Below, in pieces: positions 4,816 through 44,216 of a stretch of DNA of 60,385 bases. Location of the stretch: assembly GCF_000337675.1 (NCBI RefSeq), contig NZ_AOIB01000033.1:34075-94459 (forward strand), given 5' to 3'. Every line of letters starts with the position of its first letter. Within the stretch, counting starts at the first letter, position 1. The stretch comes from Natronococcus amylolyticus DSM 10524 (lineage in GTDB: Archaea > Halobacteriota > Halobacteria > Halobacteriales > Natrialbaceae). The translations under genes and the position numbers were made by a program. The notes beneath the pieces are model-generated. The model was not told the DNA's origin. It saw only the letters and a program-made list of their open reading frames with translations, and ran no database searches.

Positions 4816-4821
4816 ATACTA

Positions 4822-9950: not shown

Positions 9951-9973
9951 GTTAGGTGGGTAGGCCTCAGATA

Positions 9974-10960
9974 ATGAAAGTTCTAGTAACTGGCGGCGCC
10001 GGCTTCATCGGCGGCAACCTTGCAGAGGCCTTCGCCCATGAGGGCCACGACGTCACAGTCCTCGACAACCTCGACCCCTACTATGATACGGGGATCAAAG
10101 AACACACTATCGAGATCTGCGAGGAGGCTGTGGCCGATACTGACGGCACGTATGAGTTCGTCAACGGCGACGTGCGCGACGACGAGCTCACCGCAGACCT
10201 CGTCGGCGCCGCGGACGTAATCTACCACCAGGCCGCCCAGGCGGGGGTCCGGACGAGCGTCGACAACCCGCGCAAGCCCAACTCGATCAACGTCGACGGC
10301 ACGCTGAACGTGCTCGACGCCGCGCGTGATTCCGACACCGAACGGGTCGTCCTCGCCAGCTCCTCGTCGGTGTACGGGAAACCCGAGTACCTCCCCTACG
10401 ACGAAGAGCACCCCACAACCCCTGTTAGCCCCTACGGCGTCTCCAAACTCGCTGGCGAGCAGTACGCCCGCGTCTACAGCGAGGTGTACGGCCTTCCGAC
10501 GGTCTCACTGCGTTACTTTACCGTCTACGGGCCGCGGATGCGCCCAAATATGGCCATTTCGAACTTCGTCTCGCGCTGTCTCAATGACGAGGCGCCGGTG
10601 ATCTATGGCGACGGCCAGCAGACGCGTGACTTTACGTATATTGACGACGTCGTCGACGTCAACCGGAAACTCCTCACCGATGATTCGGCGGACGGCGAGA
10701 TTATCAATGTCGGCAGCACAGACAACATCGATATCGAAACCCTGGCCGAAGTGATCCGCGACGAACTCGCGCCCGAACTCGAACTCGAGTACACCGAGGC
10801 CCGCGAGGCCGACGCCGAACACACCCACGCCGACATCGAAAAGGCGAACGACCTGCTCGGCTACGAACCCACGCGGGACATCCGGGAGGGCGTCCGGGAG
10901 TTCATCGACTGGTACCAAACCAACCGCGAGTGGTACGAACCGCTCGTCCGACAGTCATAA
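9974..10960 (+). CDS. UDP-glucuronate/UDP-GlcNAc 4-epimerase-like protein
   Basis: 328-residue extended SDR. The GGAGFIG motif is at residues 7-13, active-site SSS at 130-132 and Y154xxxK158. The AAQAGVRTSVDNP stretch (about 88-99) and the LDPYYDTGIK segment are typical of UDP-glucuronate 4-epimerases and WbpP-like enzymes rather than plain GalE. It probably supplies UDP-galacturonate or a related sugar for surface glycans. It is followed by a GT4 and aglF on the same strand, each with its own promoter. Four broken 3' copies of this gene, or of a close relative, occur at 44571, 48214, 49402 and 58611. GC-rich. Confidence 0.92.
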   Translation: MKVLVTGGAGFIGGNLAEAFAHEGHDVTVLDNLDPYYDTGIKEHTIEICEEAVADTDGTYEFVNGDVRDDELTADLVGAADVIYHQAAQAGVRTSVDNPRKPNSINVDGTLNVLDAARDSDTERVVLASSSSVYGKPEYLPYDEEHPTTPVSPYGVSKLAGEQYARVYSEVYGLPTVSLRYFTVYGPRMRPNMAISNFVSRCLNDEAPVIYGDGQQTRDFTYIDDVVDVNRKLLTDDSADGEIINVGSTDNIDIETLAEVIRDELAPELELEYTEAREADAEHTHADIEKANDLLGYEPTRDIREGVREFIDWYQTNREWYEPLVRQS

Positions 10961-11162
10961 CCGAACTGTAGCTACCAATCCTCTAAGGGACCGCTTTACA
11001 CCCGTTCTCAGCGAGCGGACGTTCTATGATCCGTCTCCAGTCGATCACTACCCGAGCATACATCCTCGCCGGAGCTGACGTAACGTATACGACGTGTCTA
11101 ATTCGCAAAAGCACTCTGTGTTCGAAAAATGTATATCCGTACCTGATGGGGTATTGAACACA

Positions 11163-12344
11163 ATGAATGTCATGCGGGTCGTGCCGAGTCTCTACCCGGA
11201 GAAGATGGGTGGAATCGGACTCCATGCACACCACCTCTCGCGGCTTCAGGCCGAGGATGGTCACGACATCACCGTCTACACGTCCGATAACGGTGACTCG
11301 TCGCTCCCGGGCTGTGAGAGGCGCGACGGCTACAAGGTCAAGCGCTACCGGCAGGTCGCACGGCCGCTGAACAACACGATCACGCCCGGCATCGTCTCGG
11401 ATCTCGTCCGGGAGGCCGAACAGTACGACGTCGTCCACATCCACTCCCATCTCTACTTCTCGAGTCTCATGGCGGCGCTGGTGTCCCAGCTGCGCGACAA
11501 GCCGACCGTGCTGACGAACCACGGCATCATGTCCCAGAGCGTCTCGAAGTGGGTCCAGCTCACCTACCTGCCGACGGTCGGTCGCCTCGCCTTCGAGTCC
11601 GCTGACCGAATCCTCTGTTATCACGAACGAGACCGGAACGAGCTGCTCGACCGCGGAGTCACCACCGACATCGACGTGATCCACAACGGGATCGACTGCG
11701 AGCAGTTCGCACCGACGGCGACCGACGGGGGCGACGTGTCCCAGGTAGCTGACGACGGCTCAGAGTCGCCCTACATCGCGTTCGTCGGCCGGCTCCAGCC
11801 CGGAAAGGGCGCGCACTTCCTGATCGACGCGTTCGCTCGGATCGCCGACTCGTACCCGGAGCGCAACCTCGTTCTCGTCGGCGACGGCCCCCAGCGCGAG
11901 GAGCTCGAGGCCCTCGCCCACGAGGAGGGCGTTGCCGACCGCGTCGAGTTCCTCGGGGAGGTCCCAAACGAACAGATCCCCGCAGTCGTCGGCGAGGCCG
12001 ACGTGTTCGCACTCCCCAGTCTCGCCGAGGGGATGCCCCGAACGGTGCTCGAGGCACTCGCCTGTGAGACGCCGGTCGTCACAACGGATCTCAAACAACT
12101 CCGCCCGCTCGTCGAGGACGTCGGCCGGCTCGTCCCCGCGGAGTCACCGGGAACGCTCGCCGACGCACTCGCCGATCTCCTCGCGATGGACGCCGACAAA
12201 CGGGATCGGATGGGCACGAGGGGCCGCGAAAGGATCCTCGAGAAGTACTCCTGGCGGGACACGGTCCGCCAGACGACGAACGTCTATCGGGAGCTCCTCG
12301 ATGGGGAGGACCAGGCGACACCACAGCCCGTCGCCCACCAGTAG
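11163..12344 (+). CDS. Glycosyltransferase family 4
   Basis: 393 residues, GT-B fold. The N-terminus reads MNVMRVVPSLYPEKMGGIGLH, the acceptor-side loop. The C-terminal domain has IAFVGRLQPGKGAHFLIDAF, LVLVGDGPQREELE, and the EX7E segment ending SLAEGMPRTVLEALACETP. The ATG at 11163 was chosen over a GTG 69 bp upstream because the family motif begins right there and an AT-rich TATA-like element (near 11125) lies at promoter distance. It sits between the epimerase and aglF and probably adds a sugar made by them. A broken copy of its C-terminal part lies at 13440-13608. GC-rich. Confidence 0.93.
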   Translation: MNVMRVVPSLYPEKMGGIGLHAHHLSRLQAEDGHDITVYTSDNGDSSLPGCERRDGYKVKRYRQVARPLNNTITPGIVSDLVREAEQYDVVHIHSHLYFSSLMAALVSQLRDKPTVLTNHGIMSQSVSKWVQLTYLPTVGRLAFESADRILCYHERDRNELLDRGVTTDIDVIHNGIDCEQFAPTATDGGDVSQVADDGSESPYIAFVGRLQPGKGAHFLIDAFARIADSYPERNLVLVGDGPQREELEALAHEEGVADRVEFLGEVPNEQIPAVVGEADVFALPSLAEGMPRTVLEALACETPVVTTDLKQLRPLVEDVGRLVPAESPGTLADALADLLAMDADKRDRMGTRGRERILEKYSWRDTVRQTTNVYRELLDGEDQATPQPVAHQ

Positions 12345-12555
12345 TGAACCGGCTGCCGGAACTGTGGGTGAGCCGACGTCGCGAGCTATCGGCCGGTTCC
12401 TCGCACGAGTGCTGGTCGCTCCCAACGCTCGACGCGGGTCGTTGCGACCGCGCCCTCGGTTCAAATACCGGCCACCACCTGTTCTCATCCGGCGTCGATT
12501 CCTGAGAGATCGGAGCCGGAGTTTTCTACTGAGGATAGTTTCATAAGTACAAAAA

Positions 12556-12566
12556 TCTATTATATG
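12556..12566 (+). promoter_or_regulatory. TATA-box-like promoter element of aglF
   Basis: TCTATTATATG is centred about 27 bases before the ATG at 12588. The spacing implies a very short or absent leader and argues for that ATG rather than the two ATG codons at 12564 and 12567, which lie inside this element. Confidence 0.55.
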
Positions 12567-12587
12567 ATGACCACATCTGTCGGTACT

Positions 12588-13322
12588 ATGCAAGCTGTCG
12601 TACTCGCCGCCGGCGAAGGCACACGGCTCCGGCCACTCACGGAGGACAAACCGAAGGGAATGGTTGAGATCGACGAGGAGCCGATCCTCACGCACTGTTT
12701 TGACCAGCTCGTCGAGCTGGGTGCAGAGGAACTGATCGTCGTCGTCGGCTACCTTAAAGAGAAGATCGTCGAGCACTACGGCGACGAATACCGCGGGGTG
12801 CCGATCACGTACGCCCACCAGCGCGAGCAGAACGGACTGGCTCACGCCTTGCTGTGCGTCGAAGAGCATATCGACGACGACTTCATGCTGATTCTCGGCG
12901 ACAACGTCTTCGAGGCAAACCTCGAGGACGTCGTCCGGCGCCAGCAGGAGAAGCGGACGGACGCGGCGTTCCTCGTCGAGGAAGTGCCGTGGGACGAGGC
13001 CTCGCGCTACGGTGTCTGTGACACCAACGCCTACGGCGAGATCACCGACGTCGTCGAGAAGCCCGACGACCCGCCATCCAATCTTGTGATGACTGGCTTC
13101 TACACGTTCACGCCCGCAATCTTCCACGCCTGTCACCTCGTTCAGCCCTCCGGCCGCGACGAGTACGAGGTCAGCGATGCGGTCGATCTGCTCATTCAGA
13201 GCGGTCGGACGATCGACGCGATCGGCCTCGAGGGCTGGCGCATCGACGTCGGCTACCCCGAGGATCGCGACGAGGCCGAAAAACGCCTCCAGGAGGCCGA
13301 GCTGCCGGCGACGGCCGACTGA
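12588..13322 (+). CDS. aglF: Glucose-1-phosphate uridylyltransferase, AglF-type
   Basis: 244 residues of the nucleotidyltransferase family. The N-terminus MQAVVLAAGEGTRLRPLT carries the GxGTRLxPxT signature followed by a conserved KPKGM, and the metal/nucleotide site is LILGDNVFE. The protein closely resembles, as I recall it, AglF of Haloferax volcanii, which makes UDP-glucose or a related activated sugar for S-layer N-glycosylation. It is the third gene of the plus-strand sugar block. C-terminal fragments of this gene family occur at 41508, 50988, 54622 and 58490, and in at least one the similarity continues past the stop codon. Substrate (UTP/glucose-1-phosphate) is by family; not proven here. 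Confidence 0.9.
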   Translation: MQAVVLAAGEGTRLRPLTEDKPKGMVEIDEEPILTHCFDQLVELGAEELIVVVGYLKEKIVEHYGDEYRGVPITYAHQREQNGLAHALLCVEEHIDDDFMLILGDNVFEANLEDVVRRQQEKRTDAAFLVEEVPWDEASRYGVCDTNAYGEITDVVEKPDDPPSNLVMTGFYTFTPAIFHACHLVQPSGRDEYEVSDAVDLLIQSGRTIDAIGLEGWRIDVGYPEDRDEAEKRLQEAELPATAD

Positions 13323-26962: not shown

Positions 26963-28285
26963 TTATGTAGAGACATCCGATATAGTATATCGATACTTTC
27001 CTGAGTCAGCACGATCAATGCTTTTCGGATAATCAAACTCAACAGTAACATCCTCACCAAGAACTTTCTTTGTCTTGTCTGATATCTCTTCGAGATCTGA
27101 CTGGGGTGGAGTTTCTGTGTCAGATACTAATCGAAATACAACTCGGTCATTATCAGTCTGGTGAATTTGGAATTGATTAATCCAATCGCAGTAATATAGC
27201 GATTTTCGGAGTACTCCAGGATAAACTAGAGATCCATCTAAAGCAACAAAATGGTCAGTCACACGTCCTTGAACATCAGTTATCATTGGCCAATTACATC
27301 CACACTCGCAGCTCCCTGTATGAAATGCTGCTATATCTCCGATTCGGTATCGGATGAGTGGCATAGAAAAGTTAGTCAACGAAGTGACTACGATTTCACC
27401 TGACTCTCCCGGTTCAACAGGACTCATAGTATCTGGATCGATGATCTCTATATGATGAATCATAGGACAATAATGGAGCCCTGTTGTCCATGCACATTCA
27501 CTCGCAATAGTGCCAAATTCCCGAGACCCGTACCGATTATGTACAGGACAATCAAAAACTCGTTCGATTTGATTCCTCATCTCTGGGCGCAAAGTTCCGG
27601 CAGTCGTCATTACTGAATTGGGAGAATAAATTGCCACTTCGTTCTCCTCTATGAAATTTGCAAGGTTCGCGACTGCTTCAACATATGCATGAATGGTGTT
27701 AGGCTTTACATCATTGATCTTATTGGATGCAGTTCGGAAGTCTTCTTTGCGCATCGAGTATGCATTTATCCAAGTAACGTTCCGAAGCCACCTACCGAGC
27801 TTTGTTTTAATGCTATTGCCATTGGACAAATCTTCTTCTGAGCCCCAGAGCTTAATTTTCGGTTCTGAAATCTGTCGACCCCCCCAACCATCAAAAACTA
27901 TTTTTAATCCTTCACGGAAAGATGCATAATGCGCATCTTGGACAAACTCAGTCGGTTGCCCCGTTGATCCACTAGTTGCGTTTTTGTACCAATCTCGGTC
28001 CTGAATACCATCTCCTTTCAAATCTTCGTAATTTTCTTTGATATCCTCTTTTTCAAGCAGTGGCAGGTCACTCATTCGAGTTGCTTTCGGAGCAGAATCA
28101 AACTTCCTTTTATAATATGGAACATTATTATAGGCATAATCCAACATTCTTTGCAACCTTTTTTGATTGCATTGTTCTATAGCATCTGGAGATAGTGATT
28201 CCCAATGACCAATAGTGTTATGCTTTTTTAAGACAGAGCGTCGATACCTGAGAATTAATTTCCAGACGTGCTTTCTCAATACCAT
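26963..28285 (-). CDS. PaaK/CapK-like adenylate-forming enzyme
   Basis: 440 residues of the phenylacetate-CoA ligase-like adenylating superfamily. The phosphate loop is SGSTG at 105-109 (KNATSGSTGQP), then the NRYGSREFGTIA motif (YGxxE type) and the RYRIGDIA segment (YRxGD). A CECGCNWPMI stretch adds several cysteines, as in coenzyme F390 synthetase and CapK-type proteins. Relatives occur in many capsule and surface-glycan clusters, where they may activate an acid for attachment to a sugar. The substrate is not known. It begins the second module's minus-strand operon and is divergent from the ATP-grasp gene. AT-rich. Confidence 0.85.
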   Translation of the reverse strand: MVLRKHVWKLILRYRRSVLKKHNTIGHWESLSPDAIEQCNQKRLQRMLDYAYNNVPYYKRKFDSAPKATRMSDLPLLEKEDIKENYEDLKGDGIQDRDWYKNATSGSTGQPTEFVQDAHYASFREGLKIVFDGWGGRQISEPKIKLWGSEEDLSNGNSIKTKLGRWLRNVTWINAYSMRKEDFRTASNKINDVKPNTIHAYVEAVANLANFIEENEVAIYSPNSVMTTAGTLRPEMRNQIERVFDCPVHNRYGSREFGTIASECAWTTGLHYCPMIHHIEIIDPDTMSPVEPGESGEIVVTSLTNFSMPLIRYRIGDIAAFHTGSCECGCNWPMITDVQGRVTDHFVALDGSLVYPGVLRKSLYYCDWINQFQIHQTDNDRVVFRLVSDTETPPQSDLEEISDKTKKVLGEDVTVEFDYPKSIDRADSGKYRYTISDVST

Positions 28286-28681
28286 ATTCAGTGGAATGTT
28301 GTCTTAGACTTAGATTTGTTGGTTTCCTGCCTGAGATATCAAACATAACAGGTATCATAGTCCATTCTAAACTGGGTTCATTGTTAGGATGGCCAACACA
28401 AACCGTCTATCGAGTGGTTCTCATAGGTTTGGTAGTTATAGAAATGTACGAACTGTCAGTCCATTCATGTGCGCTCACTCAATCGATCACTCATAAGATG
28501 TGAAAAATTCACTCGGATTTCAGAGATCTAGAACCACTTTTCATAAGAGAGTGTTTAGCTTCATTTTAATCCTCACCATGGAGACTCACGAGCATTAGCA
28601 TAACCCAATCTATGGCTACTCACTTCACAATCGCAGCAAACTATATACTATATCCTGATCGGTCATATCAGAATAACTTAT
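28286..28681. other. Divergent promoter region of the second glycan module
   Basis: About 400 AT-rich bases with no gene-like frame. A TATA-like ACTATATACTATATCC lies 30-45 bases ahead of the ATP-grasp gene start. The minus-strand promoter of the PaaK-like gene should also be here. Confidence 0.45.
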
Positions 28682-29809
28682 ATGCCCAGGAGTGTGTACT
28701 TGTTATTAGTGACTAAAAAAATACAGACACTCATTAATGTTGCTCGCAACCAGGGTTCGCTACAGGCCGTACTCGCAGTAGCAGAAGCAACGCTCCCGTC
28801 GCCCTATGCGGAACGCTCAGCGTTCACCCGTGATTTTGCGAACCAAATCTCTGAGGCCCCGTCCGATTGGTCTGAACGGTTCGAAATGTGGAGAGATGGG
28901 TTCTTACCGAAGTCATATTATTTATATAATTTTGATGAATATTCGTCAAGGTCATATCTGACCGATATTCACGAAGAGCATGCGTGGAACATAAATGGAT
29001 TATCACAAAAACATGTAAATGACAAAAGAAAGTTCCACCATTTGCTATCAGATCGAGGATATAAGGAGTACCTGCCAGAATATTTTGGTGACCTTTTCCA
29101 AGGTGTTCTTATTGGGTCTGGTTCAGATATTTTTTCACTTTTGGATATGAAAGGTGAACTGGTAATCAAAGGCCACACAGGGGCAGCCGGCAAGAAAGTC
29201 TATATTATTAAGTTTGACGGCGTAGATTACTACTTTAATGGCAAACCACTTTCCAAAGTCAAATTAAGAAATTATCTTTCTTCACTAGATGGGTATATGG
29301 TAACTGAGCTTTGTAAACAGAGCAAATATATTTCAGAGATTTATCCACATACTCCAAATACGATCCGAATGATCACGATGAATCCTCAAGATGACGACCC
29401 GTTTATTGCTCGTGCAGTCCACCGGATCGGAACTAACAGATCTGAATCTGTAGACAATTTCACTCAAGGCGGTCTATCTGCTGAGGTCGGCAGGTCCGGA
29501 GAGCTAGGATCTGCTGTCCGCTACTCAGATACAACTGTTTCTTGGCATAGTTCTCATCCAGACACTGGTGCTCAAATTCAAGGAGTAATTGTCCCCCAGT
29601 GGGAATCAATCTGTGAGACGATTTTATCCGCTTCGTCCGACATACCCGAACTCAGATATCTTGGATGGGACATCATAGTCACAGAAAAGGATGGGTTTAA
29701 AATAATCGAAGCGAATGCAAACTCAGATACAGATTTGATTCAGGTGCACGAACCCCTGCTAAGAGATAGTCAGGTCCGAGATTTCTACCGCACTCAAGAG
29801 GTGATTTGA
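28682..29809 (+). CDS. ATP-grasp enzyme of glycan cluster (sugar-transfer-associated type)
   Basis: 375 residues with an ATP-grasp fold. The glycine-rich loop is LVIKGHTGAAGKKVYIIKF, followed by a MVTELCKQ strand, an ...HTPNTIRMIT... segment and the Mg-binding end IIEANANSDTDLIQ. This fits the family of ATP-grasp proteins found in glycan clusters (PF14397-like by recall). Such enzymes join a carboxylate to an amine or thiol through an acyl-phosphate. Together with the divergent PaaK-like gene it suggests attachment of an amino acid or acid to the glycan, which is inference. No membrane segment. The ATG follows a TATA-like box at promoter distance. AT-rich. Confidence 0.82.
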   Translation: MPRSVYLLLVTKKIQTLINVARNQGSLQAVLAVAEATLPSPYAERSAFTRDFANQISEAPSDWSERFEMWRDGFLPKSYYLYNFDEYSSRSYLTDIHEEHAWNINGLSQKHVNDKRKFHHLLSDRGYKEYLPEYFGDLFQGVLIGSGSDIFSLLDMKGELVIKGHTGAAGKKVYIIKFDGVDYYFNGKPLSKVKLRNYLSSLDGYMVTELCKQSKYISEIYPHTPNTIRMITMNPQDDDPFIARAVHRIGTNRSESVDNFTQGGLSAEVGRSGELGSAVRYSDTTVSWHSSHPDTGAQIQGVIVPQWESICETILSASSDIPELRYLGWDIIVTEKDGFKIIEANANSDTDLIQVHEPLLRDSQVRDFYRTQEVI

Positions 29810-29918
29810 TTGGTGAAATTAAATACGATTTTCAATGATCTGTGTCTTTGGTATTAAATCGATCATTTTCGCCAGCTATTTATCGTTAGTAGACTGAACT
29901 CGCCCATTCAGAGTCAAA

Positions 29919-31058
29919 ATGAGTACTGAAAAACTAGACCTTTGCTTCATTTCTCCTAAACTATATCACTATGTACATCCCACTGAGGATAATGCTGCTG
30001 GTGGTGCACAGCGCCAGCAATATTTAATTGGAAAAGAGTTGTCCTCTAGAGGACACGACATATCTTTTATTGTTGGAGATTATGGCCAACCAAATAGAAT
30101 AGAAATCAATAATATTAAAGTTTGGAAGGGATGTCCCAAACATGATGGTTTAGATGGGAAATTACCCGTACGTATGGTAAAACTTCTATATGTGATGAAG
30201 AAAGTTGACGCTGATATATATTATGTCCGTGGTGCCCCACCACTCTGCGCAAGTATTTATATGTTGTCAAAAGCACTAAAAAGTAATTTCGCGTTTTGTT
30301 TAGCCAATGATAAAGACGTAAAGAAGGACGAGATAAGCCAATTCCCGTTCTTTGTGAAAACCGCTTATCTCCGGGCTCTTTCCGACGCAGACTTTCTGGT
30401 CACGCAAACAAACAAGCAAAAGCGTATGACAAAGAAATTGGTTGGACAGGACTCGAAAGTCATCTCTAATGGTTACACGGTGGAAACCCAACAAGATATC
30501 AAAGATCACAATAACAGAAATACCGTGCTCTGGATTGGAACGGATGATTACGATCAAAAACGTCCTGATCGCTTCCTTGATTTGGCTGCGTCCCTTCCGT
30601 CAATGGATTTCACTATGATCTGTCGGCAAACAAATGACGTTCAATATCACCGAGAGTTGGAACAGAGATCGAAGTCAATACCAAATCTCACGTTCATCAA
30701 TTCTGTTCATCCAGACGAGATATATAAATATTATAATGACTCATACATGCTGATAAACACATCTGAATATGAAGGGTTCCCCAATGTTTTCCTTGAATCT
30801 TGGAAATATAAAACACCAGTTATTTCGCACTCATTTTCACTGGACGGATTATTATCTTCAAAATCCGTTGGATATGTGTCTGGTTCAATGAAAGAGCTGA
30901 TCAAAGATACTTCAAAATTAGCAGAGGATGTGGAAAAGAGAAAACATCTTGGAGAAAATGGTAGAAACCTACTACAGAACGAGTTTTCAATAGAGAAAGT
31001 TGCAGACGAATATGAGAGCTATATGATAGAGATGGAAAAAGCGAATAGCGCTGTCTAA
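29919..31058 (+). CDS. Glycosyltransferase family 4
   Basis: 379 residues, GT-B fold. The N-terminal domain has the AAGGAQRQQYLIGKELSSRG acceptor loop. The C-terminal domain shows VLWIGTDDYDQKRPDRF, FTMICRQTND and the EX7E region NTSEYEGFPNVFLESWKYK. The normally glycine-rich GDGP loop is replaced, so it may be a divergent member. It lies 109 bp after the ATP-grasp gene with its own TATA-like sequence (TATTTATCG near 29880). It probably adds a sugar in the second glycan module. AT-rich. Confidence 0.9.
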   Translation: MSTEKLDLCFISPKLYHYVHPTEDNAAGGAQRQQYLIGKELSSRGHDISFIVGDYGQPNRIEINNIKVWKGCPKHDGLDGKLPVRMVKLLYVMKKVDADIYYVRGAPPLCASIYMLSKALKSNFAFCLANDKDVKKDEISQFPFFVKTAYLRALSDADFLVTQTNKQKRMTKKLVGQDSKVISNGYTVETQQDIKDHNNRNTVLWIGTDDYDQKRPDRFLDLAASLPSMDFTMICRQTNDVQYHRELEQRSKSIPNLTFINSVHPDEIYKYYNDSYMLINTSEYEGFPNVFLESWKYKTPVISHSFSLDGLLSSKSVGYVSGSMKELIKDTSKLAEDVEKRKHLGENGRNLLQNEFSIEKVADEYESYMIEMEKANSAV

Positions 31059-31127
31059 TCCAGTACCATTTCGGCCAAATATTTCTAGCAATCGATAGGT
31101 GCATTCTTTGATTCATATAATGATGTA

Positions 31128-31450
31128 CCAACTATTCAACACATGCGTGTACGTTCCCCGACTATCCGCCTAAGTGTCTTGGAGCGATCGATTCGCGTTT
31201 TGGGGATGTAATATCACTTTCTGACGAGGTCCCAATCGGTACAGTTCACTTGCTCGTTCAATTCTAATCGAGAGAGTGCAACTCGATAGTCGAATTGATT
31301 ACAAGAAACTCTAGCTTCAAGCAGATCATGTTTTCCGTAGAATTCACGCAGAAACACAATGATCACTTGCTGTTAACATTAATAACGGTTTCGTCAACAG
31401 CGACCCGCGACAACACCTCGTCAACAAATTGCATCCGCTATCAACCAGTC
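31128..31450 (-). pseudogene. Eroded IS6-type transposase
   Basis: On the minus strand, FVDEVLSRVAVDETVINVN (about 31375-31435) matches the DD[E] catalytic-core start (VDET-x-x-x-x-x-G) of haloarchaeal IS6-family ISH transposases. Further along, in another frame, RLELNEQVNCTDWDLVRKWY followed by a TRIDRSKTLRRIV segment matches the later core region, in the right order. Stops and frame changes interrupt it and no inverted-repeat ends are evident. The rest of the 31059-31698 gap shows no other gene. Confidence 0.55.
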
Positions 31451-31698
31451 GGGTTATTAGTTCCAGGCTGTCTGTGAGAGCGTCCGACGCCTAGTTCAGC
31501 GAAAGTAGTTATTATATAATGAAATAAACGACCGGTCTGATGGAAACGGATGGCGAACGCCGTCAGGCTTTGACTCTTTGCCGTCCGGTCGTTCCTGTAG
31601 TTCTCGCTGAGCAGGTCCACTAGCAGTAGTTCAAATCAACTTAACGAATCACTCAACGTCTCAAACCGGTTTGGTTAGACAGTGCTAATTGAATTAAT

Positions 31699-32517
31699 TC
31701 ATAACTTTTCTTTGATTTTCGTTATTGTCCCAAGTAAGCCATTTCTTTGATACGACATGAGGGCCTTTCCAACTGTGGACTCTTCTTTATTGGTGTATAA
31801 TGATATTCCACCTATTTGTGTAAAAACACGGTGTTGGTTAGTGGAGTTTATTACTTTAGCTGCTTCCTCAACATCATGATATTTCCCAGCTCCTGGTGAT
31901 TCAATATCTAACAGTCTCCCATGAAAAATTTTAACTTTGCCTACCGCATGGCCTGGATACCGAACCATCAAATTATATTCTGAAGGAAGTGTAGCAATTC
32001 TTAAATTACTACAATACAATGCCCGTCGAAACGCTGGTTGATTTCGAGTTTCACTTTCCGTACTCAGTTGATCGTAATTTTTCTTCCAGGATTTAATAAA
32101 ATCTCTAAATCTAGGTGTGTTTTTGTATAACAGAACTCCAGTATTGTATTCTGGAAACGAATCCGGTACGTTCGGGATTTCGTATGATTTTTTATTTTGA
32201 TTGTGGGCAGCAGCTATATCAAACTCATCTAACAGGTCAAAGACTTCCTCAAAAGAAGAATCCGCATAGATATCGGTGTCAATGCACAGTGTTCTGTCAA
32301 AAGGTGTATTTAAAATATATCCTATTTGGTCAGAAAAATCAAAATCAGGATTACTTATTTTTATATATTCATCAAAAACCTCTTCAGTTACTTCCTCGTT
32401 AGACATGATTGCGATATCAATATGAGGCATATGCTTTTTTATAGATTCTGCCGATATAGCCGCCTCTCGTGCAAATCTTTTCCCTGTTGCAATATATAAA
32501 ACGCCCTTTGTCTCCAT
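31699..32517 (-). CDS. Putative GT-A glycosyltransferase (GT8-like)
   Basis: 272 residues. The DxD metal/donor motif is DTDIY at 80-84 (LCIDTDIYAD), after a KHMPHIDIAIMSN strand. A later FPEYNTGVLLYKN segment and KIFHGRLL ending (a conserved His near the active site in GT8 and related enzymes) support a GT-A nucleotide-sugar transferase. No membrane helix. It is AT-rich and transcribed on its own, convergent with the GT4 at 29919, with the IS6 remnant between, so it may have been brought in separately. The upstream side (32518-32635) is AT-rich and likely holds its promoter. Confidence 0.72.
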   Translation of the reverse strand: METKGVLYIATGKRFAREAAISAESIKKHMPHIDIAIMSNEEVTEEVFDEYIKISNPDFDFSDQIGYILNTPFDRTLCIDTDIYADSSFEEVFDLLDEFDIAAAHNQNKKSYEIPNVPDSFPEYNTGVLLYKNTPRFRDFIKSWKKNYDQLSTESETRNQPAFRRALYCSNLRIATLPSEYNLMVRYPGHAVGKVKIFHGRLLDIESPGAGKYHDVEEAAKVINSTNQHRVFTQIGGISLYTNKEESTVGKALMSYQRNGLLGTITKIKEKL

Positions 32518-34806: not shown

Positions 34807-36711
34807 TCAGTCATCCTCGTCGACCACTGTCCGTTGGTGACGAACCCCGGTGGGGTTTGAGTGCAGTTCGCCGTCGAGAAGCTGTTCGGTCACCGGCATC
34901 GTCAACACCGTCAACAGCGTGTAGAGTTCACCGGTATAGTTCTCTCCGTTGCAGTGAGCTCGGTACAGCTCGCGGATCGCGTTCGCATCCGGGCCAGGAG
35001 ATGCGTCGGCCAACCGCCCGTACTCGCTGAGCACTTCGGTCGGGAACTCGAACGAGCGAAGCAGTTCGACATCGTCCAGCCACGGCCCATCGGTCATATA
35101 CGGTTCCGGTGGCGATCGGGTGGACAGATGCTTCTGCCAGAGCTCTAAGAGGTGTTCGCCGACATACTGGATCGGAAACGGCCGTGAGAGTCCCACTCCG
35201 GTGCTGGCGTGAGGGATCACCGCAAGAGATGGGTCAAGCCGGGTCACCGCCTGGCCAACGAGATCGCGCTGGAGCCGGTATCGGGGCGGCATCGACAGCG
35301 AGAGGTCCAACAGCCGGTTGTCGAGAAACGGTGACCGGTACGGAAGCATCCGACGAAGATCGCTGTGAACCCGCATATCGTCGTCGTTCGAAAGCGGGTA
35401 ACAGCTCCCGTAGTAGACCAGGTCCTCGAGCGACTCGTAGGTAACCCCGTGGTGGATGATTCGGTCGCCGTCACGGTAGATGTTCGACTCGAGGATCGTC
35501 CGGAGATCGGTCGGCATCTCGAGGTTGTCGTGGGCGCGCTCGAGCAGCAGGTCGATGTACTCGTCGATCGTCTCGATCGAACGCTCGATCGGGACCGCCA
35601 TCGAACCCAGCGGTCCAAGTGACACCCTCGGCGATGGGACGCTGTAGCCGCTGAACAGTGAGTCGCTGTACAGCCCCGAGAACAGACCATCCACGCGATC
35701 GGTGATCTCAGCTTCAAACCCACTCGTATAGGGCTGACTGAACCAGCCGTTGAACGAATCAGCCCACCGATTGCGCTTGAGCGCCTGGATTCGGTAGGCT
35801 GCGCCGCGTTCAAGCAGGTGGAACTCCGCACCGGCTAGGAGGGCGATCTGAATCGCAGTCCGGGCCTCGCGATTGATCCAGTCGTTCATATGGAACGCAG
35901 TCGCGTCGTCGAGAGCCGCCAGGATGAGTCGCGAATCCCGCCCCCCCGACAACAACACACCGTACTCGTGGTCGTCTCGTACCCACTCGTCGATCACCGT
36001 CTGGAACCGAGCAGCGAACTCCTCGACGAACCACTCGAAGGACTCGTCACGTGGCTGGTAGTGGGGACGCCAGTACTGGTCGGTCCCGATCGAACGCTCG
36101 TCGAGCACGACCGAGGTGATCGTTCCCGGCTCGAACTTCTCGACTCCCTCGAGCGGTGTTCTGACGCCGAACGTACATCGGAACGCAAGATATTCGTGAA
36201 GATAGGCTGGATGGTACGCGGTATCGACTGCCGGATGGAACGGAAGGTACTGGATGTTCGTCGAGAAGACGATAGCCCCGTCGTCGGTCTGCGTCCAGTA
36301 GATGGGGACCGTCCCGAACCGGTCGGTACAGATGGCAAAACGTCGGCGAGTCTCATCGTAGAGCAACAACGTATAGTTCCCGTTGAGTTCCTCGAGGAAC
36401 GCGAAGCCCGACCGTTCATAGAGGGACAGACAGAACTCTGCGGAGGTGAGGTGGTCGAGTCTGGCCCTGTAGGCCTCCGAACCGTCGCGTCCGGTAACAC
36501 TGCGACCGTAGACCTCGCCGATGAGCCAGCACCGAACCGAGTCCGTTTCGGCAGTTGTCGGCTGATGGCTCCTTTGAGATGTTGCAACGGCGACCTCGTC
36601 GGTCGTGTACCGTAGTAATTGAGTCCCAGGAAGCCATTCCTCGAACACCTTCTGGTCCAGCGATCCGTCGGTGGAAACCACACCATGTGCGACCGTCATC
36701 GAAAACCACAC
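34807..36711 (-). CDS. Asparagine-synthase-like protein without the glutaminase cysteine
   Basis: 634 residues. The N-terminal half has the class II glutamine-amidotransferase fold (FLEELNGNYTLLLYDET, then CTDRFGTVPIYW) but no Cys directly after the start, so it cannot use glutamine in the usual way. The C-terminal half carries the PP-loop SGGRDS at 255-260 in GVLLSGGRDSRLILAALDD, so it can adenylate a substrate. Proteins of this kind occur in glycan and lasso-peptide clusters and make amide bonds. The N-terminal Met may be M5 (36699). It is divergent from the six-repeat protein gene, about 600 bp apart. A ligase role in surface decoration is inference. Confidence 0.8.
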   Translation of the reverse strand: MWFSMTVAHGVVSTDGSLDQKVFEEWLPGTQLLRYTTDEVAVATSQRSHQPTTAETDSVRCWLIGEVYGRSVTGRDGSEAYRARLDHLTSAEFCLSLYERSGFAFLEELNGNYTLLLYDETRRRFAICTDRFGTVPIYWTQTDDGAIVFSTNIQYLPFHPAVDTAYHPAYLHEYLAFRCTFGVRTPLEGVEKFEPGTITSVVLDERSIGTDQYWRPHYQPRDESFEWFVEEFAARFQTVIDEWVRDDHEYGVLLSGGRDSRLILAALDDATAFHMNDWINREARTAIQIALLAGAEFHLLERGAAYRIQALKRNRWADSFNGWFSQPYTSGFEAEITDRVDGLFSGLYSDSLFSGYSVPSPRVSLGPLGSMAVPIERSIETIDEYIDLLLERAHDNLEMPTDLRTILESNIYRDGDRIIHHGVTYESLEDLVYYGSCYPLSNDDDMRVHSDLRRMLPYRSPFLDNRLLDLSLSMPPRYRLQRDLVGQAVTRLDPSLAVIPHASTGVGLSRPFPIQYVGEHLLELWQKHLSTRSPPEPYMTDGPWLDDVELLRSFEFPTEVLSEYGRLADASPGPDANAIRELYRAHCNGENYTGELYTLLTVLTMPVTEQLLDGELHSNPTGVRHQRTVVDEDD

Positions 36712-37239: not shown

Positions 37240-37326
37240 ATGGGACGACGACCGGAAACCCAACACGACGGACACGAAACGGGTGGCGTGAGCAATGCGA
37301 CGAGAGAGATAGGTGTGCAAAGATGA
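37240..37326 (+). CDS. 28-codon upstream ORF coupled to the repeat protein (putative)
   Basis: An ATG at 37240 opens a 28-residue, polar, Arg/Gly-rich frame (MGRRPETQHDGHETGG...). Its TGA overlaps the next gene's ATG (ATGA, 37323-37326), which suggests translational coupling. It might be a leader peptide, or the true N-terminus of the big protein shifted into another frame. Low confidence. Confidence 0.3.
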   Translation: MGRRPETQHDGHETGGVSNATREIGVQR

Positions 37327-40300
37327 CCCAGGCAGTACTCGATCTCGCGGATGACGATCATCAGCAGAACCTGAACAATCGATCCGGTTTCGAGTTCGAG
37401 ACGACTGAGGCCATCAATGGACTCGAGTGTCGTCTCTCTGCTTGGACGACGGGCGCTCTTACAGCGTACCTGACTGACGGGTCAGGTAACGTCCTCGAGC
37501 GACAGTCGATCGCGACGCTCAGTCCCGGAGAGACGTTTACGTTCGAGACCGAACTCGAGGCCGACGAAACCTACTGGATCCTCTGTGATGCCCGGGGGTA
37601 TGAGTACGGCCGGGGTCGGGCAGCAGTTGACTACCCGATCGAGAGCGACTCACTGGTCGCGACGACCGGGGTGTTCACCGGCGATGGGTTAACAACGAGT
37701 AATTATCGCTACTGTGTCGATCGGATCAGCCCGGCGTTCGGTGGTGAGACACTTGACTTGGGAAGCGACGAGGAGTCACAGTCGTGGAGCGGCCTAGATC
37801 AGCCATCTGGGGTTCGCATTCAAGCGACCACGGACGTCGCAGAGTTCGACTGTCGGTTGTCTGCAGCGACCAGTGGTGTCACCGAGGCGTATCTGACTGA
37901 CGACTCTGGAGACGTTATCGACCAGCAATCGATCACCAATCTCGGAAGCGGGGAGAGTTTCTCGTTCGATACTGGGCTTGTCGCTGACGAGGCCTACTGG
38001 GTGCTGTGTGACGCAGACGGAGACAGCTACGTTCGTGGTCGTGCTGGAGCAGACTATCCACTGGAGAGCGACTCACTCATAGCGACGAACGGAATCTACG
38101 GTGGTGATATGGAAACCGGGGGCTATCGCTACTGTATCGACCAGATCCAGATTCCGGACGTAGACGAACCAACCGGTCAAGCTCTGAACCTCGGAACTGA
38201 CGATGAGGGCCAATCCTGGGGCAGCTTAGACGACTGGTCCGGCGTTCGTGTTCAGGTCACTGAATCCATCCACGGACTCGAGTGTCGACTTTCGACAGAG
38301 ACCGAGGATGTCACGACGGCATATCTGACGACGGACGATGGCAGTGTTCTTGAACGACAGACGGTCGCGACACTTGACGGAGGCGATACGTTCGCGTTCG
38401 AGAGTTCGCTCGAGCCAGGCGAGGCCTACCGGATCGTCTTCGACGCTCGCGGTCGGAGTTACGTTCGTGGCCGAGCGGCAGCCGACTACCCTATCGAAGG
38501 TACCGCCCTGGATATCACACACGGTATCTACGGTGGCAGTCAGCAAACCGAGAGCTATCGGTACTGTGTCGATCGAATCGTCCCGCAACAGACGAACTTT
38601 GTGACGCCGGACTCACCGGGTACAACGGATCTCCTCAATCTGGGTTCGGACGACGAGGCCCAGTCCGGGTTCACGAGCTGGTCCGGTGTTCGCGTCGAAC
38701 TCACGGAAGCGGTTCATGGCCTTCAGTGTCGACTCTCCGGGGAGACCGACGTCACCACAGCCTATCTCACCGATGACTCCGGAAACGTTCTCTCTCAGCA
38801 GTCAGTTGCTGACGTGGAGTCTGGCGGAACGTTCGTATTCGATGATGTACTAGCCGCTGGTGAAGCGTACTGGGTCCTCTGTGATAGTGACGGTGAGGAT
38901 TACACTCGAGGCCGAGCTCAAGTCGACTACCCACTCGAGAGCAACACTTTCGTCGCAACACACGGGATCTACACCGGGGAATCGCTCACCACTAGCTATC
39001 GGTACTGTATCGACCAAATAGAGACACTTCAGGGACGCGACGACGTCGATACACTGAGTCTGGGGAGCGATGCGGAGGGCCAGTCAGGGTTTACGAACTG
39101 GTCCGGCGTTCGTGTCGAAATCACGGAAGTAGCTCATGGATTGCAGTGTCGGCTCTCCGCTGAAACCGACGTCACCACGGCCTATCTCACCGACGACTCC
39201 GGAAACGTCCTCTCCCAGCAATCAGTTGCTGATTTAGAGCCGGGTGAGACGTTTATGTTCGATACTGGGCTCGGTGTTGACGAGGTCTACTGGATTCTGT
39301 GTGATGGAGACGGTGACGCCTATACTCGAGGTCGCACAGCGGTCGACTACCCACTCGAGAGTGACCATCTCTCGGCAACACACGGGATCTTTACAGGCAC
39401 CTCTCTCACCACTAGTTATCGGTACTGTATCGATCAGATTCAAACAGTACGAGCGAACACGAACGTGGATACACTCGGTCTCGGGAACGACGAGGAAGCG
39501 CAATCCGGATTCACGGACTGGTCCGGTGTCCGCATTCAGGCAACGGAGCCTATCCGTGGTCTGCAGTGTCGCCTCTCCGGGGAAACGGACGTTACGGCGG
39601 CGTATCTGACGGACGACTCCGGAAACGTTCTTCGGCAACAGTCAATCGAGGGCTTCAACCCCGGAGACACGTTCGTCTTCGATGTCGAACTCAAGGCCGA
39701 TGACGTCTGTTGGGTACTGTGTGACAGCGATGGCGAAAGCTACACCCGGGGGCGAGCAGCGGCCGACTACCCACTCGAGAGTGAGTTGGTCTCGGTTACA
39801 CACGGAATTTTCACCGGTGAGTCGTTCACTGAGAGCTACCGGTACTGCATCGATCAGATTCAAACGACGCTGGCAGGTAGTGGACTGACGTCCTCCCTCG
39901 AGAACCGCTCGCTCGACGTTACGACCGTCGACGTCGTCGAAGAACCTTCGATCGACGAGAGCGGAGACTTGGCCGCGGAGCTCATCGCGTATATTACTGC
40001 CCAAAACGAGGTCAACCACGAGTTCGTCCTGCCGGCGGGGACGTACAACTGGAACACCGAGTTCGTTCTCCCCGATCCGATCGAGTACCTTGAAATCAGA
40101 GGAGAGCCACGAGCGACCCTCCAGGTCCGAGACCATAGCGTCAATGTCGCGTTCGAACTCGGTACCTGGGCTGACGACAACCCGCCCCAACACGTTGTCC
40201 TCCAGGATTTCGATCTCGACATTGCCGACCAATCGGAGCGAGACTCCGGATTCATTACGGCACACGTCGGTCGCTGTCTGATCGACAACGTCGAACTCGT

Positions 40301-41051
40301 CGGCTCGCGCTGGCGACACGGCCCACAGGGCGGCGGCCGGTACACCTGTCTGATCAACACGCGCGATCCGGAGATGCTCTCGATGGTCCGCAACCTCAGC
40401 TTCCCCGATGGTGAAATCGCCGACTCCGACGAACCGTCGGTCGGACACTCGATCGGATTCAGTGCCGACCCGCCACACGAAGGGATCACCCTCTGGCAGC
40501 AGTGTTATGTCGAGGACTACGTCGACAACGGATTCTACGTGAGTAACAGTGACGGCGAGAACCTCATCGTCCACGGGACAGCGGTCAACTGCGGAAACGG
40601 GACCCTCCGAATCGGTGCCGCCGACGAGGCTCGAGACTGTAAGGTCCTTTTGGATGCGGCTTCCGACCAGATCTATCCCGGTGCCGGCCTCTGGTTCCAG
40701 GGTGGCGAACCGCTCGCCGAACGAATCGAGATCGAGGGCAGTGACGCCCAGAACGACATCCTCAGAATCAACAGCGATGCCGACGGCGGCCAGATCACCG
40801 GTCTCGACCTCTTCTGTGGGCCGCCCGTCGATGCACCGGCGATCCGGTGTACGTATACCAGTGACACGGACCCATCCGGTGTGCTCATTGAGGATTTCAC
40901 CGTCGAAGACGTGACTACGGCAAACGACAACGGCAGCGTCAGTATCCGTCGTCCGGATATCACGCTGAGTTCGGGCCAGATCGACGCCGAAAACCGACCG
41001 GCACTCGGTGGAGGCTACGATCCGGATCTCGACGACGTTGAACTGTCGTAA
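37323..41051 (+). CDS. 1242-residue six-repeat protein with C-terminal beta-helix-like region
   Basis: The first ~850 residues are six tandem copies of a ~137-residue module. Each copy reads WSGVRV-x-TE, then CRLS, TAYLTDDSGNVL, YWILCD, RGRA-x-DYP, and ends SYRYCIDQI. Residues ~860-1242 look like a right-handed beta-helix of the pectate-lyase type (HEFVLPAGTYNW, FDLDIADQS, GFYVSNSDGENLIVHGTAVN). Three cysteines per module (about 18 in all) is unusual for a haloarchaeon. No Tat or Sec signal is seen at the N-terminus, so either it is cytoplasmic, it is exported another way, or the start is wrong. A carbohydrate-binding or -modifying function is inferred from the beta-helix. GC-rich. Confidence 0.85.
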   Translation: MTQAVLDLADDDHQQNLNNRSGFEFETTEAINGLECRLSAWTTGALTAYLTDGSGNVLERQSIATLSPGETFTFETELEADETYWILCDARGYEYGRGRAAVDYPIESDSLVATTGVFTGDGLTTSNYRYCVDRISPAFGGETLDLGSDEESQSWSGLDQPSGVRIQATTDVAEFDCRLSAATSGVTEAYLTDDSGDVIDQQSITNLGSGESFSFDTGLVADEAYWVLCDADGDSYVRGRAGADYPLESDSLIATNGIYGGDMETGGYRYCIDQIQIPDVDEPTGQALNLGTDDEGQSWGSLDDWSGVRVQVTESIHGLECRLSTETEDVTTAYLTTDDGSVLERQTVATLDGGDTFAFESSLEPGEAYRIVFDARGRSYVRGRAAADYPIEGTALDITHGIYGGSQQTESYRYCVDRIVPQQTNFVTPDSPGTTDLLNLGSDDEAQSGFTSWSGVRVELTEAVHGLQCRLSGETDVTTAYLTDDSGNVLSQQSVADVESGGTFVFDDVLAAGEAYWVLCDSDGEDYTRGRAQVDYPLESNTFVATHGIYTGESLTTSYRYCIDQIETLQGRDDVDTLSLGSDAEGQSGFTNWSGVRVEITEVAHGLQCRLSAETDVTTAYLTDDSGNVLSQQSVADLEPGETFMFDTGLGVDEVYWILCDGDGDAYTRGRTAVDYPLESDHLSATHGIFTGTSLTTSYRYCIDQIQTVRANTNVDTLGLGNDEEAQSGFTDWSGVRIQATEPIRGLQCRLSGETDVTAAYLTDDSGNVLRQQSIEGFNPGDTFVFDVELKADDVCWVLCDSDGESYTRGRAAADYPLESELVSVTHGIFTGESFTESYRYCIDQIQTTLAGSGLTSSLENRSLDVTTVDVVEEPSIDESGDLAAELIAYITAQNEVNHEFVLPAGTYNWNTEFVLPDPIEYLEIRGEPRATLQVRDHSVNVAFELGTWADDNPPQHVVLQDFDLDIADQSERDSGFITAHVGRCLIDNVELVGSRWRHGPQGGGRYTCLINTRDPEMLSMVRNLSFPDGEIADSDEPSVGHSIGFSADPPHEGITLWQQCYVEDYVDNGFYVSNSDGENLIVHGTAVNCGNGTLRIGAADEARDCKVLLDAASDQIYPGAGLWFQGGEPLAERIEIEGSDAQNDILRINSDADGGQITGLDLFCGPPVDAPAIRCTYTSDTDPSGVLIEDFTVEDVTTANDNGSVSIRRPDITLSSGQIDAENRPALGGGYDPDLDDVELS
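37340..39870 (+). repeat. Six tandem coding repeats of about 420 bp
   Basis: The YRYC codons that end each module recur near 37705, 38125, 38560, 38998, 39420 and 39840, a spacing of 420-438 bp. Copies 4-6 are most alike at the DNA level (for example GACGACTCCGGAAACGT in all three), so they probably arose by recent duplication. Confidence 0.8.
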
Positions 41052-41830: not shown

Positions 41831-42907
41831 TTACTCCCGAACCTGTGTCTCCTGCCCCTCGTTGACCTGCATGTCGAACAGCATGGCGAACATCAGGAAC
41901 ATGCTGCCCATCGTGAACAGCATCATACTTCCCGTCCCGCGCATGAACAGCGACTCGCCGAGGAATAGGGAAGTGTACAGTGCCCAGAGACCGGCCAGAA
42001 TTCCCAGGCCAGCAGTCCCAGCCCCAAAGAAGTAAAACAGCGCGAGCGGATGGAAGTCCAGCACGAGGTACTTCACCTTCAGCCGCCAGAGGAATCCTCG
42101 AAGCAACATCCCCGAGACGTTCCAGATGTAGCTCGGATAGCTAATCGAGGACTCCTCGTCGCCGTACAGCGCCGGCATCGCGACGTCGGCCACGCGCATC
42201 CCCTTCGCGTTCAGCTTGATCAGCAGGTCGTTGCAGTAGCCGTAGTACTCGTAGAGGTCCTCGAGCCCGGCGTTCTCCAACGCATAACTCGAGATCGCCG
42301 TATACCCGTTCTGTGGGTCCATCGTCTTCCAGTAGCCGCTAGCGATCTTCGTCAGGAAGGTGAGAATCGAGTTCCCGAAGAAGCGGAACGGCGGCATATC
42401 CTCGCGGAACTCCTTGTACAACAACCGATTAGCCTTCGAGTAGTCGGCCTCGTCGTCGACAATCGGATCCAACAGACGAGTCATCTGCTCGAGGTCCATC
42501 TGGCCGTCGCCGTCGACCGTGGCGGTGATATCCACATCCGCGTCTCGAGCGGCCAGATACCCCGTTTTGATCGCCCCGCCCGCACCGAGGTTCTCGCGGT
42601 GTTCGATCGGCACCACCCGTCCAACGGGATCGTGGACGATCGCGCGCTCGGCGAGCATCCCGCCGCCGTCGGTGCGGGCCTCCTTGGCGTAGCCGAGCTC
42701 CTGCCCGCTGGCCTCGACGAACGACTCGCTGACGCCGGCGTCCTCGCGGGCCGCCTGCAACACCTCGTCCCACGTCCCATCGCTCGAGCAGTCGTCGATG
42801 ACGAACATGCGGTCGACGTAGTCGGGCATCCCCCGAATCACGTCGCCGATGAACCCTTCCTCGTTGTACGCCGGGATCACGACGCCGATCGTGTGCTCGC
42901 GGTACAT
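41831..42907 (-). CDS. Glycosyltransferase family 2 with C-terminal membrane helices
   Basis: 358 residues. The GT-A part has GVVIPAYNEEGFIGDVI (8-24), VIDDCSSDGTWDEV (37-49) and the donor site DGDGQ at 132-136. About 35 extra residues (60-95) sit between the second and third motif, typical of a haloarchaeal subgroup. Two membrane helices are near the C-terminus (LALFYFFGAGTAGLGIL; SMMLFTMGSMFLMFAML). Such enzymes usually load the first sugar on dolichyl phosphate or make a dolichyl-phosphate sugar. It starts 1 bp after the nucleotide-sugar dehydrogenase stop, so the two are one operon: the dehydrogenase likely makes its uronic-acid donor. GC-rich. Confidence 0.92.
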   Translation of the reverse strand: MYREHTIGVVIPAYNEEGFIGDVIRGMPDYVDRMFVIDDCSSDGTWDEVLQAAREDAGVSESFVEASGQELGYAKEARTDGGGMLAERAIVHDPVGRVVPIEHRENLGAGGAIKTGYLAARDADVDITATVDGDGQMDLEQMTRLLDPIVDDEADYSKANRLLYKEFREDMPPFRFFGNSILTFLTKIASGYWKTMDPQNGYTAISSYALENAGLEDLYEYYGYCNDLLIKLNAKGMRVADVAMPALYGDEESSISYPSYIWNVSGMLLRGFLWRLKVKYLVLDFHPLALFYFFGAGTAGLGILAGLWALYTSLFLGESLFMRGTGSMMLFTMGSMFLMFAMLFDMQVNEGQETQVRE

Positions 42908-42908
42908 G

Positions 42909-44216
42909 TTACAACCTCCGGTAGGTGAACAGCTCGGCAGCGTCCTCGAACGTGCCGTCGATGTCGATCATGACGGGGTCGTCGGCCATCTGGTCGGCCA
43001 GCGTCGCGGGCGACAGCGACTGGAACTCGCTGTGTGGCGTGCCGATGACGAGTCCGTCGAAGTCGGTGACGTCGAAGGCGTCCTGGATCTCGATATCGAA
43101 CGCCTCCCGGGTTGCCTCGGGGTCGGCGTGGGGGTCGAAGCCGACGACCTCGATCCCGTACCCCTGGAGCTCCTCGATGACCTGGCCGATCTTCGAGGTG
43201 CGGATGTCGTCGACGTCGGGCTTGTACGCCAGCCCGGCGACGAGCACGCGGCTGTTCTTGGGGACCTTCTCGCTCTCGTTTAACGCCCGGATCGTCATAT
43301 CGGCGAGATGGTCCGAGACCGACTCGTTGACCTCGCGGCTCGTGCGGATGAGCTCGGGGTCGACGCCCTCGCGCTCGCTCTGGTAGAGCAGATAGAACGG
43401 ATCGACGGGGATGCAGTGGCCCCCGACCAGGCCGGGCTCGTACTCGTGGAAGTTCCACTTCGTGCCCGCGGCCTCGAGGACGGCCTCGGTCTCGAGGCCG
43501 AGCTCGTCACACACCATCGCCAGCTCGTTCATCAGGGCGATGTTGACGTCGCGCTGGGTGTTCTCGACGCACTTGGCGGCCTCGGCGGTCTCGATCGTCG
43601 GCGCCTCGTGCAGGCCCGCGTCGACGACGGTGCCGTACAGCTCCACCAGTTCGTCGCGACCCTCGTCGGTCAACGCACTCACGATCTTGACGACGTTCGC
43701 CAGGCCGTGTTCGGTGTCGCCGGGCACCATCCGCTCGGGCGAGTAGCCCACGTCGAACTCCTCGCCCGCGGTCATCCCCGAGGCCTCCTCGAGGGCCGGG
43801 ACGAACACCTCCTGGGTCGCGCCCGGGTACACCGTCGACTCGAGGACGACGGTCGTCCCGTCGGTCATGTTCTCGCCGACCGTCTTCGCGGCGCCCTCGA
43901 CGATCCCGAGGTTGGGCTTCTCGTTGTCGTCGACGGGGGTCGGCACCGCCACGATGACGAACTCCGCGTTCGCGATGTCGGCGCTGTCAGTGGTGTACTC
44001 GATCCCGCCCTCGGCGATCGCCGCGTCGCCGACGTCGCCGGTCGGGTCGACGCCGGACTCGAGGGTGTCGACCTTGTCGGGGTCGACGTCGAATCCCGTG
44101 ACGCTGTTGCCCGCCGCGTCCAGCGCGGCTGCAAGCGGGAGGCCGACGTAGCCCAGTCCGACGACGCAGACGCTCGCGGTCGTCTCGACTGGCTCCTCGT
44201 ACTGGTACTCGCTCAC
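42909..44216 (-). CDS. Nucleotide-sugar dehydrogenase (UDP-sugar to uronate, WecC/TviB-like)
   Basis: 435 residues of the UDP-glucose/UDP-ManNAc dehydrogenase family. The NAD motif is GLGYVGLPLAAALDAAG (20-36). The catalytic cysteine is C268 in GGHCIPVDPFYL, the conserved lysine is in AEAAKCVENTQRDVNIA (about 215), and the C-terminal substrate domain shows VAGLAYKPDVDDIRTS. GHCIPVDP followed by FYL is more typical of the UDP-N-acetylhexosamine group (WecC, TviB, WbpA) than of UDP-glucose dehydrogenase. It oxidises a hexosamine or hexose C6-OH to the acid with two NAD. It is first in a two-gene operon with the GT2. Confidence 0.92.
   Translation of the reverse strand: MSEYQYEEPVETTASVCVVGLGYVGLPLAAALDAAGNSVTGFDVDPDKVDTLESGVDPTGDVGDAAIAEGGIEYTTDSADIANAEFVIVAVPTPVDDNEKPNLGIVEGAAKTVGENMTDGTTVVLESTVYPGATQEVFVPALEEASGMTAGEEFDVGYSPERMVPGDTEHGLANVVKIVSALTDEGRDELVELYGTVVDAGLHEAPTIETAEAAKCVENTQRDVNIALMNELAMVCDELGLETEAVLEAAGTKWNFHEYEPGLVGGHCIPVDPFYLLYQSEREGVDPELIRTSREVNESVSDHLADMTIRALNESEKVPKNSRVLVAGLAYKPDVDDIRTSKIGQVIEELQGYGIEVVGFDPHADPEATREAFDIEIQDAFDVTDFDGLVIGTPHSEFQSLSPATLADQMADDPVMIDIDGTFEDAAELFTYRRL

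Follow-up and report, generated by a model that had tools for sequence, protein, structure and literature searches.

Right-handed beta-helices occur in phage tailspikes, AlgE mannuronan C5-epimerases and beta-helix lyases, and beta-sandwiches of the sugar-binding type in entries of the carbohydrate-binding module (CBM) families 6, 32, 35 and 36 as well as in the lectin-like domain of Cwp84. Here, we analyse a gene of Natronococcus amylolyticus DSM 10524, located at 37323..41051 (+) of a stretch of 60,385 nucleotides (the window in the following), which encodes a signal-less protein of six tandem modules followed by a predicted beta-helix. The helix would share its class with the tailspikes, AlgE enzymes and lyases (Z 13-18, obtained with a weak model) but shows no sequence match to them above noise (best E 0.15); the module shares its predicted fold class with the CBM and Cwp84 entries over 91-127 residues but has no sequence-family match to them and forms a tandem six-fold array. 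The Natronococcus wall contains galacturonic acid. Passages of two papers describe the wall of the genus as glycosylated polyglutamine (PMC4243693, PMC4187196), and the galacturonic acid mentioned in one of these passages belongs to Halococcus (PMC4187196). Based on the predicted fold, the fusion of sister modules to polysaccharide lyase family 14 (PL14), the helix class, the glycan genes nearby, the presence of modules in nine of nine listed genomes of the genus and purifying selection, we somewhat favour a role of the protein in multivalent binding of glycan and in processing of polysaccharide, its target being the acidic glycan in the wall or capsule of the genus.

The module family and its predicted fold

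The gene is a single open reading frame (ORF) of 1,242 residues with 25 cysteines, beginning with the ATG at 37323; there is no in-frame start upstream, where 44 open codons devoid of ATG, GTG and TTG lead back to a stop. A profile built from the repeats matches six modules of 138-141 residues each, i.e. module 1 at 37323..37739, module 2 at 37740..38159, module 3 at 38169..38591, module 4 at 38619..39032, module 5 at 39039..39452 and module 6 at 39459..39872 (all +). The copies are also apparent in the DNA, with a spacing of 420-441 nucleotides and an identity of 60-76%, well above chance, confirming the count of six given by an earlier reading of the bare letters (the sequence-only reading). 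The C-terminal remainder of about 350-380 residues is of the beta-helix type. Orthologues are 85% (L043) and 80% (L036) identical, and the nonsynonymous/synonymous ratio of 0.16-0.20 over the whole gene, with an overall range of 0.15-0.30, indicates purifying selection. A 28-codon ORF at 37240-37326 (+) overlaps with its stop the start of the window gene (ATGA); judged by eye, a similar short ORF with the identical overlap precedes L043 and L036, not L039.

The sequence-only reading had not recognised the module as a named domain, and this holds for the libraries searched. Whole-protein scans remained below cut-off in Pfam (E 0.12 and 0.56) and NCBIfam (0.068 and 3.1), and the best PHROGs value for the whole protein (9.4e-5), with no single stretch passing, is read as a sum over the repeats. 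The PDB sequences contain no relative of the whole protein and yield a cystatin as the best match of the module profile (E 0.033). A phage search with the whole protein gave no match and viral-contig scans gave no confirmed match; DUF4082 (PF13313) matches 5 of 19 modules weakly (best E 0.0031). In a limited literature search, the only source used for a prior description, there was no match for Natronococcus with beta-helix and no title naming the module.

Module 5 was chosen for folding. The AlphaFold2 model, based on an alignment of 46 modules, is an all-beta sandwich with a mean predicted local distance difference test (pLDDT) score of 95.8 and a predicted template modelling score of 0.90. 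In VIA-align its best match is the phi812 baseplate protein (Z 12.0, root-mean-square deviation (rmsd) 2.6, 130 aligned residues), followed by the lectin-like domain of Cwp84 (Z 11.5, rmsd 2.7, 127 aligned), PHR domains (Z 11.4, rmsd 2.9, 133 aligned), polyvinyl alcohol esterase (Z 10.4), carbohydrate esterases (Z 9.2-9.5) and, lower, CBMs (Z 6-7); phage fibre proteins are also among the best fold matches, and Foldseek finds one viral model (template modelling score 0.86, E 2.9e-10). The predicted fold is a CBM-type beta-sandwich, with Z-scores of 6-12 to CBM and lectin-like entries. The lack of a library match together with these sandwich matches therefore suggests that the module is a new sequence family on a common sandwich fold of the sugar-binding type. 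Glycan binding, already considered in the sequence-only reading, would be its likeliest role, judged from the predicted fold and the fusion to PL14 lyases described below.

The predicted beta-helix and the N-terminus

A right-handed beta-helix is predicted for the C-terminus (39921..40985, +), which belongs to a haloarchaeal family with twin-arginine translocation (Tat) signals in most of its members. The family alignment of 28 rows contains a conserved stretch DPxHxG...C...DNGxY, in which the His is present in 25, the next Gly in 28, the Cys in 27, the Asn in 25, the Gly in 27 and the Tyr in 27 of the rows, and which in its DPxHxG part presumably recalls the DPHE motif of AlgE. Eight of the 28 rows match Pfam Beta_helix (PF13229) and three Pect-lyase_RHGA_epim (rhamnogalacturonase/epimerase family). 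Modelling module 6 together with the helix from eight sequences gave a weak model (pLDDT 61.1, below 50 for the DPxHxG part), which was used for the fold class only; structural alignments of its helix part over about 300 residues match inulin fructotransferase, AlgE epimerases, RbmB lyase and tailspikes with the Z-scores given above and support, at the level of a predicted model, the fold class and not the chemistry. For the beta-helix end proposed previously, the window row itself has no Pfam match.

The N-terminus of the window protein shows no Tat motif and no hydrophobic stretch, and as no start lies upstream, the missing signal of the sequence-only reading is upheld. The signal test combined the twin-arginine (RR) motif with hydrophobicity, the latter alone overlapping between the groups (control L089, 0.66), and left out L045 with its ambiguous start and L041, which is cut by a contig end. 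An RR motif ahead of module 1 was found in none of the 12 Natronococcus genes tested (L040 has one within a module) versus 10 of 10 Tat-type controls, and none of the 12 has a strong hydrophobic stretch at the N-terminus. Among 12 distinct helix genes from outside the genus, 11 show an RR motif close to the N-terminus, and Tat-signal helix paralogues are encoded by Natronococcus itself (L124, L125, L128). Signal-less helix genes also occur without modules (L126, L127, L131); their charged N-termini could be coiled coils, and no annotated virus gene lies near L127. For the place of action of the window protein, we give an even chance to the cytoplasmic side of envelope assembly; release by lysis or by an unknown route is a possibility to which we assign somewhat less than even chances.

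The cysteines

The sequence-only reading had noted three conserved cysteines per module and considered binding of glycan or metal, possibly with zinc or disulfides. The first (CRLS; residues 36, 177, 321, 469, 609 and 749) and the third (RYC; residues 131, 271, 415, 562, 702 and 842) are indeed present in all six modules, the middle one (LCD) in five of them, with VFD replacing it in module 3. Module 6 has an additional cysteine at residue 796, and the remaining seven are located in the helix end. The cysteine content of 2.0% compares with 0.00-1.20% in seven Pfam-supported neighbours within the window; a helix relative with a Tat signal (L049) also has 2.0% (12 of 595 residues), showing that being cysteine-rich is not equivalent to being unexported.

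A zinc- or disulfide-stabilised surface adhesin, in which the three cysteines of each module form a metal site or bonds and which is exported by an unknown route, would agree with the first and third cysteine being present in nearly all Natronococcus modules and with the confinement of two or three site cysteines to the signal-less clade. Among 104 distinct modules, however, the sites are lost singly instead of being conserved together as ligands or bonded residues: the patterns are CCC (53), none (24), C.C (15), CC. (4),.CC (3), C.. (3) and ..C (2), so that 15 modules lack only the middle and three only the first cysteine. This count left out L004, which duplicates L038, as well as modules that span less than 100 positions of the profile, and one of the CC. 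modules is cut by a frameshift. In relatives the sites hold V, L, A, I, F, G, S or N. No conserved partner residue was noted for the three cysteines per module, and an export signal is absent. Loss that is not pairwise and hydrophobic replacements therefore speak against zinc or an obligate disulfide, the metal proposal was not borne out, and we regard the adhesin as very doubtful. In the predicted module fold the first and second sites lie within strands and the third adjacent to one, which together with the mode of loss and the hydrophobic or small replacements points to buried free thiols. This argues for the cysteines being part of the buried core, where an unexported protein tolerates or favours them, and not of a metal site.

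All modules with two or three site cysteines originate from signal-less proteins, and Tat-type as well as viral modules have none, except that module 2 of L085 and of L088 has the first cysteine alone. The modules of L005 and L090 carry a cysteine at a different position, which counts against a simple rule relating export and cysteines. Since the module tree described below allows a single event, the link between site cysteines and signal-less proteins may have arisen only once and is an association, not proof.

Distribution and viral relatives

A module search of 125 genomes of the family returned 17 positives, i.e. all nine listed for Natronococcus and 8 of 116 others. A draw across the class contained the module in 23 of 391 genomes; in a draw across the phylum only the window's own genome was positive among 294, saying little on absence elsewhere, as the listed part held none of the other positive haloarchaea. 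Six of seven named loci matched by modules are from Natronococcus and one from a Natrialbaceae assembly. Natronococcus genes encode 4-7 modules plus the helix, barring L048, a copy with a single module at another site of the window's own genome, L047 (G006), a one-module variant with an N-terminal hydrophobic segment, and the two gene copies of G004 (L039, L040), both of which are frameshifted by sequencing error in the repeats, decay or switching.

These frameshifts would be expected if the protein, after loss of its Tat signal, had become a decaying relic in the cytoplasm, with its cysteines drifting, and L046, the closest outgroup with a module before the helix, does have a Tat signal. This is highly improbable given the nonsynonymous/synonymous ratio of 0.15-0.30, the modules in nine of nine genomes of the genus and a repeat number that has risen to 4-7 in most copies.

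Outside the genus the module is found in three settings. The first comprises Tat-signal proteins with one to three modules, together with a helix in L005, L046, L085, L086 and L088-L090 and without one in L091 and L092; the helix was detected by profile in L005, L046, L086 and L088-L090, and L085 was assigned by the likeness of its N-terminus and modules to L088. In L090 (G373; residues 510-845 of the open frame), roughly two dozen residues are duplicated in tandem within each of the two modules. In the second setting, signal-less one-module proteins are joined to a PL14 lyase (L082, 28.2 bits with a cut-off of 27; L083, 31.8 bits; L084, partial). PL14 had no match in the window's own genome, though the control genomes gave none either. 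The third consists of small tail-fibre-like ORFs without site cysteines (L093-L098, L100), which we take to be viral from their N-termini. L050 (G034), a signal-less protein of 1,052 residues, has two beta-helix stretches, weak tail-spike matches and an N-terminus that we take to be C1q-like.

Several observations connect the module with tailed viruses. The profile hits ORFS12 of the Halorubrum tailed virus DL (E 1.8e-13 among 77 ORFs), located two genes past the tape measure gene, and L095 matches seven phage records, two of which also span the module region and five of which (tail fibre, tail and virion proteins) only its C-terminal part. Upstream of the module-PL14 gene in G314 lie genes for terminase (E 6.7e-62), portal, head (weak, 1.1e-4) and tape measure (1e-125) proteins, and on the G254 contig those for terminase, portal and tape measure are present. 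A helix relative is encoded directly before the module-PL14 gene in G314 and G219, bearing in G314 a BppU_N baseplate domain (27.2 bits, cut-off 23.1). In G254:C37 (46.5 kb; L084, L114, L115), the module-PL14 ORF leaves one contig end and seems to resume at the other, so the virus-like element may be circular. The literature search gave no match for a haloarchaeal virus with polysaccharide lyase and tail. The view of the sequence-only reading that the module is new is supported for the libraries searched; what it had missed is that the module is older and wider than the cysteine-rich form and occurs in virus tail genes as well.

A module tree of 65 chosen rows, with several viral rows on long branches, unites the Natronococcus modules in one group (98/95) with three provirus-lyase modules as their sister (99/93), and the first module of the Tat protein L046 falls outside both. 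The tree of the helices places two Tat proteins, L046 (94/94) and L014 (87/68), as the closest outgroups, and the provirus helix joins L050 (94/96). Taken together, the two trees suggest a cellular line for the helix and a line shared with proviruses for the module; transfer may have occurred in either direction. L036 (G002) is syntenic with the window gene, yet its helix groups with the paralogue L037 of its own genome (100/99), therefore likely by gene conversion.

Sister modules in tailed proviruses beside a gene with BppU_N and a helix, a named halovirus in which two genes separate the start of its tail genes at the tape measure gene from the module, and phage baseplate and fibre proteins among the best fold matches are all compatible with a protein of viral type, serving in receptor binding or as a tailspike, that was either domesticated or remained as a leftover; like the signal-less beta-helices of tailspikes, it would need no signal since virion proteins exit by lysis. 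We consider this unlikely, as no virus genes are among the annotated neighbours in the window, L043 or L036, as the closest relatives of the helix line are Tat-exported proteins of cells and not the provirus helix, and as the protein is present in nine of nine genomes of the genus. The window gene is not part of a virion gene run, its annotated neighbours being glycan genes, an asparagine-synthase-like gene and a protease.

Genomic neighbourhood

The genes for a glycosyltransferase 2 and a nucleotide-sugar dehydrogenase at 41831..44216 (-) form a context of glycan synthesis that is retained beside the orthologue in L036; judged from a subfamily-level match, the dehydrogenase would supply a uronic acid donor. 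About 25 kb off, at 9956..13322 (+), are genes for a sugar epimerase/dehydratase, a GT4 enzyme and an AglF-type uridylyltransferase (438 bits, cut-off 400), which partly adjoin the gene in L043, L036 and L039. A divergent asparagine-synthase-like gene at 34807..36711 (-) is retained beside L043, L036 and L039. Its glutaminase domain has no Cys directly after a start Met, presumably the position of the glutaminase nucleophile, so the protein is perhaps not glutamine-dependent. Within the glycan region, 2001-8000 and 24001-32000 of the window have a low GC content of 0.38-0.42 versus about 0.6 around and were likely imported.

Discussion

According to the model of a multivalent glycan-binding, polysaccharide-processing protein, the modules would bind to an acidic (uronic-acid) polymer that forms part of the wall or capsule of the cell itself. 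The helix would epimerise, cleave or hold this polymer through its conserved DPxHxG...DNGxY stretch. Several results weigh against this model. Foldseek found nothing below E 0.001 for the module model in the PDB, and sandwich folds likewise serve protein binding, as in the PHR domains. The window's helix row matches zero Pfam families at E 0.01, and as its model is poor, catalytic residues are not mappable. Sandwich and helix domains are usually extracellular, fitting badly with a signal-less protein, and paralogues with five or seven modules lie outside glycan clusters.

The occurrence of sister copies, unexported and cysteine-bearing, in host and virus raises the prospect that both recognise the same uronic-acid surface polymer. 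A glycan-gripping domain would then be common to host envelope enzymes and to tailed proviruses of the same family, with the host building or remodelling the polymer and the virus cutting it via the PL14 lyase, and the window protein, genus-wide and expanded in its repeats, would be a missing signal-less part in the assembly of the unusual glycosylated polyglutamine wall of Natronococcus. We regard this extension as speculative and rather unlikely. The domain family, which is absent from the libraries searched, ties haloarchaeal surface-glycan proteins to virus tail proteins and provides a handle on wall building in Natronococcus as well as on the passage of archaeal tailed viruses through host glycans, for which the module-PL14 genes of the proviruses would be a case if their products belong to the virion.

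Two groups of relatives share features with the window protein. Of the Tat-exported helix proteins, L046 and L005 (Halostagnicola larsenii) share both kinds of domain with it and L014 the helix only; in contrast to the window protein, this group has a Tat signal, 1-3 modules placed mostly after the helix, and none of the three site cysteines save a lone first one in L085 and L088. The module-PL14 genes (L082, L083 and the partial L084) resemble the window gene in having sister modules, two of the three cysteines and no signal, but encode a single module, have a lyase of another fold family replacing the helix and lie within virion gene runs. What is striking about the window protein is not how many cysteines it has but that its unexported module type is joined to a predicted beta-helix on the host side and to a polysaccharide lyase in proviruses of the same family.

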